Source: Syncephalis fuscata (taxonomy: Eukaryota; Zoopagomycota; Zoopagomycetes; Zoopagales; Piptocephalidaceae). Taken from it: a stretch of DNA of 32,020 nucleotides. This document shows positions 14,665 through 29,449 of the stretch, piece after piece. Numbering within the stretch: the stretch's first letter is position 1; each line of letters starts with the position of its first letter. The stretch covers positions 1 to 32,020 of the forward strand of contig JAHLTZ010000083.1 in assembly GCA_025786725.1 (NCBI GenBank), in the 5' to 3' direction. Made by a program: the position numbers and the translations under genes. The notes below the pieces were generated by a model. The model was not told where the DNA came from and did no database searches. It saw only the letters and a program-made list of their open reading frames with translations.

Positions 14665-15149
14665 AATGGTTGAAATGAATTAGCCAGCTAATTCGACAGT
14701 ATCGAATCTTGTTACATAAAAAGCAAATAATAAAATTAAAGCTATTGAGAAAACAGTTGATTAGCACAAAGTGTTGAAATATGTAAATTTAAGCTTCTGT
14801 ATTTTTGCAAACATGTTAATAATATAGCTGATTATCATTTGCTAATTGTTGGATGTAAATAAAACATGAGCATAGACATGATGACTTGATCAAACAAAGT
14901 AAAATGGAACCATGTATTTATTACTAAAAATCTGAATAGTTGAATAAACACAACTGAATTCAGGTTTGCTAGTGATATAATGGTGCCACTGATTAAAAGA
15001 AATAAACCGGATCATTGGCTGGAACTTGCTATATAAATAAGCTGAACGGCACTTGTCAAACGATCTTGCCTTGCACCTAGTATATACCTAGAATAGATTG
15101 AACTAGTCGTTCAATCCTACTGCCAATGCCAATGTATTGGATGTACCGG
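14665..15149. other. 3' flank shared by two genes
   Basis: On the minus strand this holds the 3' UTR of the micro-exon gene. A minus-strand AATAAA appears as tttatt near 14916, about 230 nt past its stop. No open frame or RNA gene was seen. Confidence 0.4.
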
Positions 15150-17064
15150 TTATTCTATGTTTATAAATATATACACAAGTGATATGAATTAATGTATAAA
15201 CCAACAATGTATAACATCACCTACTCTCTATTAATGTCAAGTTATCGAACATAAAACATCACATAAAATTAATTCATAATCGACTAATATACTGTAGTAC
15301 TTACTAACTATTAATATTAAATTATTAATGCATAAAATATATAATATACAATTAGCGCATAAATAATTAATATAAATTATCACCTACCGCCTATTAGTAT
15401 TAGCATCAGCATACAAAATAAACGTGTAATTAGTAAACAGTTAATTAGCATACAATATCGCTTACATTCTATTAGCATTAAATTATTGATATAAAACATG
15501 TAGTGTATAAGCAATACATAGTTAATTAGTATGCGCTAGTACTTACTGCCTATTAATATTAAGTTATTGATATGCAATGAATATGCAATTAGTAAATAGT
15601 AATTATCATATAATAGCACTTACAATCTAATAGTGTTAAATTATTGATATGAAAATAAATTGCAATTAGTATATAGATGGCCAATATATAATACGACTTA
15701 CTCTCTGTTGATATCAAGTTATCAAACAGCACATAGCATGTAATTAGTGTATAATCCATTGACATATAATGTCACTTACCAGCTATAATATTAAAATATT
15801 GATACACGTTGCATAACATGCAATTAGTACATATTCAATTAATATATAATGCCACTTACGATCTAATTCTATAAGTTATTTAATAAATACAACGCATAAA
15901 ATATAGTCAACACATAGCCAATTGCTATAAAATATCACTTACCATCTATTGATATTAATTTGTTTATGCGCATTACATATATAACAAAATTAGCGTGTAG
16001 CTGCTTGATATACAATACTACTTACAGCCTATTATATTAATTTGTTGACACATACAGCACATAGCATGTAATTAGTGCATAGCCAATCAGTATAAAATAC
16101 CACTTACCGTCTGTTAATATTGAGATATTAATTTAAGTGTCACATAACATATTATTAGTGTGTAGTCGACTAATATACAATCTTACTTACCACCTAGTGT
16201 ATTGAATTGTTCATTTACATAATGCATAGCATATAATTATTATTTAATTGATTAATATAAAATATTACTTACGACCTATTATATTAAATTGTTCATTCAC
16301 ATAATTTGTAGCATGTAGTTAGTATATAAACGATTAATACACAATGTTACTTACGACCTATTATATTAAGTTGTTGATGCACACAGCAATACCATGCAAT
16401 TAGTGTAAACTCGATTAAAATACAATATTACTTACAAACTATTGATATCAAGTTGTCAATACAGATGGTACATAGTAAGTAATTGATTACAATTAATTAA
16501 TGCAAAATATCACTTACCAACTATTAGTATCAAGTGGTTGATGTAGATTATACGTATAATGCAATTAGTACATAAATAATTAATATTTAGCAAAACTTAC
16601 GATCTATTGTATTAAGTTGTCGATACACATAGTACAGTACATTTAATTAGTATACAGCTAATCAATATACAATGCCACTTACTGCCTATTAATGTTAAGT
16701 TATTGACATGCACAATAAACGGTATATAATTAATGCATATCCAGTCATTATATGGTGTACTTACAAGCTATTAATTTAAAGTGTTAAATAAAACATATAT
16801 TTAGTTAAATTGTCAGTTGACATATAATATAACTTACCTCTGACTAATTTTAGTTTGGCAAATATAAACAATATTTAGTTAAATATTTAGTCAACGTGCA
16901 ACACCACTTACATCCTATCAATGTTGTTATTACATATTAGCATTGCATATTTATTATAAATGTAACCTACTGCGATCAACCAAAACTGACTTAGCATCCA
17001 CTGTGGATGTACTGGCCACAAAAGCCACGACGAGGGTGCAGATAACGGCAATAGAAAGCTTCAT
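15150..17064 (-). CDS. Secreted Cys-rich peptide gene with 22 micro-exons
   Basis: Exon 1 (17064-16971) encodes 31 residues. The first 24 are a textbook signal peptide (MKLS, a hydrophobic core of I/V/A/L/F, cleavage after T-V-D-A). It ends in phase 1 at donor GTAGGT. The following exons, in gene order, are 16914-16912, 16843-16838 (6 nt), 16767-16765, 16685-16683, 16603-16601, 16520-16518, 16438-16436, 16357-16355, 16275-16273, 16193-16191, 16110-16108, 16028-16026, 15945-15943, 15862-15860, 15782-15780, 15704-15702, 15626-15624, 15549-15547, 15468-15466, 15390-15388, 15307-15305, 15227-15225. A final exon starts at 15154, with TAA at 15152-15150. Introns are 56-80 nt. Every acceptor is AG (mostly TAATAG) and every donor GTAAG or GTAGG. 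The product has 55 residues; the mature part is basic, with cysteines C-x3-C-x9-C-x-C, as in the CxxxC/CxC core of defensin-like CS-alpha-beta peptides. The role is unknown; antimicrobial, effector or signalling functions are possible. The gene structure is inferred, without transcript data. Confidence 0.8.
15210..16930 (-). repeat. Degenerate ~80-bp tandem array, 22 units
   Basis: The plus strand repeats the pattern ACTTAC-NNN-CTATTAATATTAAGTTGTTGA, followed by a less conserved part with CATGTAATTAGT and AATTAATATACAAT, about every 75-83 bp. Conservation is highest on both sides of the three N positions, and those three positions vary freely. Read on the minus strand, each unit is a complete intron plus one 3-nt exon of the peptide gene. 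The array appears to have grown by tandem duplication of an intron-exon unit followed by divergence. Confidence 0.9.
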
Positions 17065-17194
17065 GATGATAATGTTGATTGTTGAATCAAAGTAAAATGA
17101 ATACTGCAAGCTTTTTGAAACAGTGTGAAAAATAGTGAGTAGCAGAAAGTGGGGTTTGATATGATGATGCCACTGATAATTGTGCGTTTTTTGT

Positions 17195-17212
17195 GGACTA
17201 TTTAAATACATT
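17195..17212 (-). promoter_or_regulatory. TATA-like box of the micro-exon peptide gene
   Basis: On the minus strand the sequence reads GTATTTAAATAG, about 135 nt upstream of the ATG at 17064. The enolase and polyubiquitin genes have similar AT boxes about 140-160 nt upstream of their start codons, so the spacing is consistent within this window. Confidence 0.4.
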
Positions 17213-17689
17213 GCTATTTTGGAGAACCAAACAATGTGTTCTATCAATTACAACACTGATACGCGATGTAAATCAATGAAACACATCCATGTGATAGCTT
17301 AAACCATCCATATACCGATGTAGCAACGCCATAGTAATATGTAATTAGGCCTTAACCCAATATGCTCGGATTGGGCCAGATGAAACAGCAATTTCAGCGA
17401 TTCCGTACATATGTGGTAGAGTTGCAATAGAATTCTATTGCCTTGTTTAGAATTTGGACATGCGTCGCAAATGAAACATATTGGTTCCATTGGAGCATTG
17501 CAATGTATCACTATGCCTTTTACCGCCGCTTTTATCAACAACAACTCAATTTCAAATATTTTTATCCTTTCAAACCGAGTATAGCGCTAAACTTGTATTA
17601 TTTACAGGTATATACTTTTATGCACAAGCTAGCTACACTTTTAAATTATAGATATATCGATTGGTTTACAAATTCATTCAATGTGACAT
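17213..17689. other. Unassigned sequence upstream of the peptide gene
   Basis: Overlapping frames at 17299-17544 (-) and 17443-17694 (+) are open. The minus frame contains a small Cys cluster (CFICDACPN) but no known domain, and neither has splice or poly(A) support. It may be a remnant of a mobile element. Confidence 0.3.
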
Positions 17690-17787: not shown

Positions 17788-18200
17788 TGAAATGGTGTTT
17801 TGGCCTATTGGTTGGTTAACACGCCCTCCTCAGTTTTAGAAAGCGAGAGAGGGGGGCTTTCGTTTAGTTTGAAACCCGTTTTATGGATGCGTAATGGATT
17901 ATTCCGTAAGAAAAAGGTCAATATTCCAAGATGTGAGGAGGTCACTACAGAAAATACTGTATGTGGTGAGGTCTGCTTTGCGCGTGGTAAGGTCTGTTTT
18001 GCGCGTGGTAAGGTCTGCTTTGTGTGTGGTAAGGTCTGCTTTGTGTGTGGTAAGGTCTGCTTTGCGTGTGATAAGGTCTGCTTTGCGTGTGGATATGTTC
18101 GAAAAAAATTGTCTTTTTTTCCTACTTATGGCAGAAAAATTTCGCAATGCACGAATAAATCCTGATGGTTCATTATCTTAAACTAATTAATTTAATTAAT
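17788..18200 (+). mobile_element. tRNA-derived SINE, copy 1 (diverged)
   Basis: Aligns with copy 2 at 18526-18829 through the tRNA-like head, the block TCAATATTCCAAGATGTGAG and the 3' end CTTAAACTAAT. The head has an A-box-like TTGGCCTATTGG (17800-17811), a long variable-arm stretch and a B-box-like AGTTTGAAACCC, resembling a Leu or Ser tRNA. It is expanded by an internal 21-bp tandem array. No clear target duplication remains, so it is older than copy 2. Ends are approximate. Confidence 0.65.
17965..18090 (+). repeat. 21-bp tandem repeat, six units, inside SINE copy 1
   Basis: Six consecutive units of the type GGTAAGGTCTGCTTTGYGYGT. The unit length is a multiple of three, so frames on both strands stay open (one gives a KVCF-type repeat). 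The corresponding part of copy 2 has a single related segment, so the array expanded after insertion. Confidence 0.85.

Positions 18201-27895: not shown

Positions 27896-29449
<1,554 letters not shown>

Follow-up and report, generated by a model that had tools for sequence, protein, structure and literature searches.

Can a fungal gene encode the body of a secreted peptide in exons of one codon each? The question is raised by a 32,020-nucleotide stretch of DNA from Syncephalis fuscata (Zoopagomycota, Zoopagales; contig JAHLTZ010000083.1), referred to here as the window. A sequence-only reading of the window had proposed that about 22 three-base units, each lying between a splice acceptor and a donor, are joined in series behind a signal-peptide exon.

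Predicted structure of the window gene

The predicted gene runs along the minus strand (17064-15150) and consists of exon 1, 22 micro-exons, and a final AA-TAA exon (Table 1). The 22 units listed agree with the number proposed: 21 are 3 nt long and the sole exception, TCAGAG (16843-16838), is the single 6-nt unit that had been described. They are spaced 71 to 83 bp apart, and their donors are GTAAGT in 19 units, GTAGGT in two, and GTAAGC in one. For micro-exon 2, unit calling at one point preferred only 2 nt (AG), counted from a closer acceptor AG; this shorter unit would break the frame. Joined in order, the predicted exons give 168 nt that encode 55 residues and a stop, MKLSIAVICTLVVAFVASTSTVDA-KSVLVDRRFRACNLVCRRDGYDPENCKCVKK-stop; the 31 residues past the likely signal peptide carry the cysteine pattern C-x3-C-x9-C-x-C, the one seen in the sequence-only reading. 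One detail of that reading required correction, as the stop codon does not directly follow the last acceptor: the acceptor ends at 15155, and two bases, AA (15154-15153), finish a lysine codon ahead of TAA (15152-15150). Upstream of exon 1, a TATTTAAATA stretch near 17208-17199 appears TATA-like by eye only.

Within the window, the string ATAGNNNGTAAGT by itself has 13 occurrences, every one in the array; 100 dinucleotide shuffles gave a mean of 0.09 and a largest count of 2. Rfam gave no match in the window, and a tRNA scan of the window found none. Elsewhere in the window, a 21-bp tandem repeat (17962-18092; 6.2 copies, 91% matches) sits in a 124-aa open frame on the plus strand (17791-18165), in which KVCF-type motifs recur; it lies some 0.9 kb upstream of the array gene. 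A polyubiquitin gene whose five 228-bp units are 96% alike occupies 27896-29200 on the minus strand.

Table 1. Features of the predicted array gene, in window coordinates.
Feature	Positions	First base	Strand	Remarks
Upstream region and most of exon 1	16991..17222		-	Common to intronless paralog L056 (blastn: 240 aligned columns, 70.8% identity)
Exon 1, 94 nt	16971..17064		-	Predicted signal peptide MKLSIAVICTLVVAFVASTSTVDA and KSVLVDR; one base of next codon left over
Micro-exon array, 22 exons and introns between	15225..16914		-	Units AG, NNN, GTARGY
Micro-exon 1, GAT		16914	-	
Micro-exon 2, TCAGAG	16838..16843	16843	-	Sole 6-nt unit
Micro-exon 3, CTT		16767	-	
Micro-exon 4, GCA	16683..16685	16685	-	Cys 1 with last T of micro-exon 3
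Micro-exon 5, ATC		16603	-	
Micro-exon 6, TTG		16520	-	
Micro-exon 7, TTT		16438	-	
Micro-exon 8, GTC	16355..16357	16357	-	Cys 2 with last T of micro-exon 7
Micro-exon 9, GTC		16275	-	
Micro-exon 10, GTG		16193	-	
Micro-exon 11, ACG		16110	-	
Micro-exon 12, GCT		16028	-	
Micro-exon 13, ATG		15945	-	
Micro-exon 14, ATC		15862	-	
Micro-exon 15, CTG		15782	-	
Micro-exon 16, AGA		15704	-	
Micro-exon 17, ATT		15626	-	
Micro-exon 18, GCA	15547..15549	15549	-	Cys 3 with last T of micro-exon 17
Micro-exon 19, AAT		15468	-	
Micro-exon 20, GCG	15388..15390	15390	-	Cys 4 with last T of micro-exon 19
Micro-exon 21, TTA		15307	-	
Micro-exon 22, AGA	15225..15227	15227	-	End of array
Final exon start	15150..15154		-	AA finishes a Lys codon ahead of stop TAA; identical in paralog L010
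3' UTR	14843..15129		-	Common to array-bearing and array-less paralogs; to intronless L056, 69.2% over 292 columns

Array loci across the genome

The S. fuscata genome (28.95 Mb, 299 contigs) holds at least 109 matches to the window array DNA, the best 40 of 329 candidates having been scored. We worked with 40 array loci, 39 of them picked for likeness to the window array and the window itself. Strict unit scoring skipped units at double spacing, and relaxed scoring recovered them; because relaxed scoring also made spurious antisense chains with long units that were not multiples of three, antisense chains were left out. Exon 1 was in reach in 30 of the 40 loci, in which 862 units were called, 815 of them 3 nt long. 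These genes have 18 to 49 units each, with a median intron of 78 nt, and 694 of the 815 three-base units have a donor that is exactly GTAAGT. A GC donor (GCAAGT) was seen at 16 of the 815.

Our unit caller favors 3-nt units by design, but pattern counts do not. The pattern TTAATAG-NNN-GTAAGT is found 1992 times genome-wide and its reversed control once; with 2, 4, or 6 bases between the sites, the pattern is found 13, 5, and 6 times (controls 8, 4, and 2). The three-base length is therefore not imposed by the caller. Exact pattern matches make up 367 of the 815 called 3-nt units, and if this share holds everywhere, the genome total can be estimated at about 4,400 three-base exons (1992 divided by 0.45). 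Allowing up to three mismatches, we located the exon-1 DNA pattern at 180 places (none for the reversed control), and the family exon-1 peptide has matches at 150 places or more (150 scored, of 341 candidates). Both are counts of places and not of array genes, because they include array-less relatives and near-identical pairs that may be unmerged haplotypes or recent duplicates. Among such pairs, L049/L048 (on C222/C278) and L051/L052 (on C95/C68) have one copy on a small contig and one on a large contig and are 97 to 99% alike in the 3' UTR, consistent with either origin.

One array intron carries an insert of about 420 bp (L017:3663-4154), beyond which the units resume, and 11 sense-strand array chains contain one gap of length 470-600. 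Judged by eye, the end of the insert in L017 and L018 resembles an antisense tRNA-derived SINE, with A-box- and B-box-like stretches and a T-rich end. A reading frame of the insert is also present in L027, L028, L035, L039, L040, and L045.

Stop codons are avoided only when neighboring units are joined

Wherever exon 1 was in reach (30 loci), it ended one base into a codon. The first frame test used 23 of these, as seven were left out for a called unit that was not a multiple of three (in L009, this unit sits past the array). In the predicted frame, the 23 loci comprise 673 codons, of which 1 is a stop and 124 encode cysteine; one of the other frames gave 8 stops and 4 cysteines in 696 codons, the other 75 and 23, respectively, in 673. 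When exon order was shuffled 2000 times, we obtained 41.6 ± 4.7 stops (minimum 26) and 56.7 ± 5.3 cysteines (maximum 73).

The same 23 genes were examined junction by junction. Joins between neighboring units produced 1 stop in 645 junction codons, with 124 cysteines, while joins from unit i to unit i+2 produced 48 stops in 622, with 41 cysteines, and joins to units i+3 through i+8, which skip two to seven units, produced 28 to 50 stops in 484 to 599 codons. Over all non-neighbor joins the count was 346 stops in 4935 (binomial probability of the neighbor count, about 2e-19). When all 30 loci were read up to the first unit that was not a multiple of three, which in L010 is already the second, 28 were free of stops, and the total was 2 stops in 824 codons (L031 and L046; binomial 2e-23 at the background of 346/4935). 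Near its stop, the chain of L031 is interrupted by a 162-nt gap, where a unit was missed or has been lost.

These counts bear on two alternative explanations. In one, the arrays are tandem DNA repeats whose likeness to splice sites reflects common descent, there is no spliced product, and the open frame has arisen by chance or is a remnant. In its favor, the units are alike in sequence, part of the window array is called a tandem repeat by TRF, and no deposited gene model that we examined reads through an array; such repeats would not, however, confine the avoidance of stops to neighbor joins, match the mature part of one array to an intronless gene, or leave AG and GT hardly changed between paralogs (see below). 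On the junction test, we rejected a reading as tandem repeats alone, and we regard this explanation as highly improbable. In the other, the arrays are spliced mainly combinatorially, with exons skipped at will to give many isoforms per gene. Skipping would be tolerated by nearly all units, which keep the frame, and schistosome micro-exon genes appear to vary their proteins by alternative splicing (PMC5825161). Nevertheless, one-unit skips run into stops at the background rate (48/622) and form fewer cysteines (41/622 versus 124/645), so that selection appears to have kept only the full, in-order reading clean. Some skipping would still be compatible with these data, but mainly combinatorial splicing is unlikely.

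Not every locus reads well. L042 and L046 read poorly, L042 going wrong after an odd unit, and L023, L042, L046, and L018 have odd-length units inside the array or, in L018, an exon 1 that is seemingly shifted. It is possible that these four are pseudogenes beside intact members, and some family members, for example L042, may be dead.

Relatives without introns and deposited gene models

In L048, L049, L051, L052, L053, and L056, exon-1-type sequence runs uninterrupted into a cysteine-containing body. Alignable sequence between the window gene and L056 extends from about -158 into exon 1 and resumes in the 3' UTR; between these two blocks, L056 has a contiguous reading frame where the window gene has the array. 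In 28 of 31 array genes, the exceptions being L013, L030, and L045, a matching 3' UTR starts 21 to 130 nt past the last called unit, and it is present in all nine array-less loci, in one of which (L059) exon 1 and the body seem to be in different frames.

The bodies themselves can also be aligned. Array gene L054, with predicted exons of 94, 9, and 33 nt followed by 3-nt exons, yields TCKCQDEDGNCTSC; this matches intronless L048 (ACKCRDDDGYCTSC) over CKC.D.DG.CTSC, with 10 of 14 residues identical (E 9e-7 for the single comparison), and spliced L021 aligns with the intronless protein P0001 (E 3e-5). Both E-values are uncorrected for choice, because the pairs were picked for likeness. In a FastTree tree of exon 1 and 3' UTR (35 of 40 rows; five dropped for a short or missing UTR), genes with and without arrays interleave, and several nodes are weak. 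It is doubtful that the intronless paralogs arose as simple retrocopies, because the match to L056 extends back to about -158; cDNA-mediated conversion or an intronless ancestor may account for them instead.

The interleaving would also fit a history in which the array-less paralogs are the functional genes and the arrays arose as a by-product when introns proliferated, are now decaying, and are tolerated or dead; the badly read L042 and L046 and the shifted look of exon 1 in L018 could be cited for it. Decay would not be expected to leave 28 of 30 loci free of stops as far as their first unit of a length not divisible by three, to spare cysteine codons, or to preserve splice sites between paralogs, which makes this history very unlikely.

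The deposited S. fuscata models that we examined are either intronless relatives (P0001 and P0002) or stop early, and none reads through an array. P0011 contains exon 1 of L021, followed by AQ, as the first two micro-exons predict, and then by one misfit residue; read by eye, it then matches the translation of the third intron of L021. P0012 holds RRAPEDDTDVVYMRPG, which needs the 9-nt exon of L054. None of the canonical splice-site paths in L021 and L054 gives P0011 or P0012 exactly. If P0011 were taken as the rule, the product would end early, comprising exon 1, a few micro-exons at most, and intron sequence to the first stop. Deposited models of this kind do exist, but an early end would not account for the maintained frame and cysteines or for a 3' UTR lying past the array, and we find it scarcely credible.

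Splice sites are preserved between paralogs while triplets change

Changes by site were counted in 14 close pairs, with some genes used twice; a fifteenth pair had no countable columns. Differing positions numbered 1 of 610 at AG, 3 of 613 at GT, 20 of 1220 in the rest of the donor, 720 of 17328 in the intron interior, and 110 of 974 in the triplet bases. Triplets differed at 2.0 to 2.5 times the rate of the intron interior in 12 pairs, over intron-identity filters from 0.75 to 0.93. The triplets had been described as the only unconserved positions; they are indeed the fastest-changing, but the introns vary too, with a within-gene median identity of about 0.73 to 0.75. At the loosest filter, 2 of 33 cysteine codons were changed and 35 of 128 other codons. 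Diversifying selection was considered as a cause of the fast triplets. The triplet excess is also present at synonymous sites, and because pN (0.119) is not above pS (0.150), we claim no positive selection.

By our count, 13 of 17 indels of at least 20 nt in ten close pairs are near whole multiples of the unit and four are not; L015 and L025 differ by an eight-unit indel at 99.4% identity. Within genes, 39 intron pairs are identical at 97% or more, and the triplets preceding such introns are the same in 14 of 38 cases and differ at all three bases in 11. Between paralogs, 7 of 154 triplets have two changes, above the 1.2 expected from the mean. These patterns suggest either that introns are homogenized or copied apart from the exons or that codons are replaced whole. 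In L014, CAA and ACC partly alternate from about the eighth to the twentieth called unit, with introns 96 to 100% identical, giving an NPNP-like stretch indicative of recent whole-unit duplication.

Predicted peptides

The spliced mature parts of the 30 loci have six cysteines in 13 cases and four in eight, including the window gene; the remaining loci have 0 to 3, 5, 7, or 8, and the one without any, L010, was read with a frame-breaking 2-nt unit. An alignment of 20 selected spliced and three contiguous peptides has the consensus C-x2-C-x3-C...C-x3-C-x3-C, and the signal and pro-region ahead of the cysteine body are conserved, ending in ALVRR. Read by eye, the N-terminus is hydrophobic and conserved and ends in VDA.

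Alpha-hairpinins and other known cysteine-rich peptide families were considered and rejected for want of a Pfam or solved-structure match. Pfam returned five families at E <= 1, none reaching its cut-off (best E 0.018; 15.6 bits versus a cut-off of 26.6), and a PDB profile search gave nothing significant (best E 0.18; hairpin-type peptides 0.46 to 3.7). Fold prediction of the intronless P0001, run with three others, was not interpretable (mean pLDDT 60.7). A search with the family alignment against a collection of 5.8 billion proteins, limited in reach, returned 15 relatives at E <= 1 (294 candidates), all from S. fuscata.

Proposed gene model and splicing mechanism

We conclude that the window very probably contains a protein-coding gene of a large S. 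fuscata family whose cysteine-rich part is read from serial single-codon exons, spliced in order. Comparison among the loci demonstrates the units, their frame, their in-order reading, and the ends common to array-less paralogs, and from these we infer 23 splice junctions in the window gene. The gene model of the sequence-only reading is supported by the family, the frame, the junction stops, and the paralogs without introns, with splicing deduced from the DNA. The series of micro-exons is confirmed as real and is larger than first reported.

In the proposed model, exon 1 would encode the conserved signal peptide and a short pro-region, and the array would encode the mature, variable, cysteine-rich part, with each micro-exon supplying the last two positions of one codon and the first of the following one. 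The predicted introns would have the form GTAAGT...AATAG and a length of about 78 nt, and the last exon would carry the stop and the conserved 3' UTR. Introns would be recognized singly, by intron definition, and they are short and have strong donors, as such splicing needs. Because an acceptor and the next donor, 3 nt apart, can hardly be occupied together, the introns are probably removed one by one, in sequence. Every removal step would then regenerate the next donor, making a recursive, codon-adding ratchet. The peptide is presumably secreted. Syncephalis species are mycoparasites (PMC10386755), and the peptide would most plausibly act on other fungi or on kin, as a weapon or a signal.

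As nearly all units contribute a single codon each, losing or gaining a whole unit shortens or lengthens the peptide by one residue and keeps the frame. We tentatively hypothesize, as a possibility somewhat short of probable, that the array is a device for evolution codon by codon. Introns would copy themselves or convert each other beside existing splice sites, cutting a continuous exon into single codons; unequal exchange inside the introns would then add, remove, or swap whole codons with the frame unbroken, and recursive splicing would read the result. The introns of 97 to 100% identity that flank different triplets and the whole-unit indels between paralogs would fit this hypothesis.

If the model is true, the spliceosome joins about 20 to 50 single-codon exons in a row, gene after gene, an estimated 4,400 or so three-base exons in a 29-Mb genome. 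Such genes would test the lower limit of exon size, would imply that exon definition is not needed, and would offer a natural system for recursive splicing. They would also provide a frame-proof route by which secreted peptides evolve one residue at a time, in a family that the examined deposited models do not read through.

Comparison with known systems

In the open-licence PMC literature, we found nothing on serial single-codon exons or on the S. fuscata family. Aphid bicycle and pea-aphid KQY/KHI effectors resemble the S. fuscata genes in their conserved signal-peptide region, divergent body (secreted in the aphids and presumably so in S. fuscata), and many small exons (PMC7495047, PMC9168663), and the internal exons of bicycle genes nearly all start at codon position 2, as the S. 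fuscata units do (PMC9168663). However, KQY1a has exons of 6 to 416 bp in a 45.7-kb gene (PMC7495047), and bicycle genes average about 17 exons (PMC9168663), as opposed to 18 to 49 called units, nearly all of 3 nt, in S. fuscata. The protein search showed no homology to bicycle or cassette proteins within its limited reach: all 15 relatives at E <= 1 (294 candidates) were from S. fuscata.

The 1-nt exons of Arabidopsis APC11 (PMC4674806) and Fusarium CYP621A (PMC12940212) are likewise too small for exon definition. For APC11, the flanking introns are proposed to be removed one after another (PMC4674806), and for CYP621A, an intronless relative was used as support (PMC12940212). These genes have one tiny exon each, unlike the 18 to 49 in a row in S. 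fuscata. A ratchet point of recursive splicing leaves no bases behind. Ratchet points share with the arrays a juxtaposed acceptor and donor and stepwise processing (PMC8605326), but each step in S. fuscata would leave a codon. Fungal introner-like elements also consist of many similar, presumably copied, short introns (PMC4457414), and near-identical introns at several positions are present in S. fuscata as well (39 pairs at 97% or more); among the loci compared, those similar to the array, exon 1, or a family protein, they differ in following one another with only 3 nt between them, in a single gene family.

Micro-exon genes of schistosomes and tapeworms have mostly secreted products, as is presumed for S. 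fuscata, and are alike in their long runs of micro-exons divisible by three (PMC5825161, PMC7653826). Their exons measure 6 to 36 bp (PMC5825161) or less than 70 nt (PMC7653826), whereas the fungal array is nearly all single codons: 815 of the 862 called units in 30 loci, at 3 nt, fall below the schistosome range. The S. fuscata genes are furthermore fungal and have intronless relatives, and their relatives in the protein search, limited in reach, are in S. fuscata only. A micro-exon gene has been defined as having at least seven exons, half or more of them micro-exons shorter than 70 nt and divisible by three, in runs of at least four (PMC7653826). With 22 of its 24 predicted exons of 3 or 6 nt in one run, the window gene falls within this definition, and by published structural definition, the S. 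fuscata genes, as predicted, are an extreme form of micro-exon gene.
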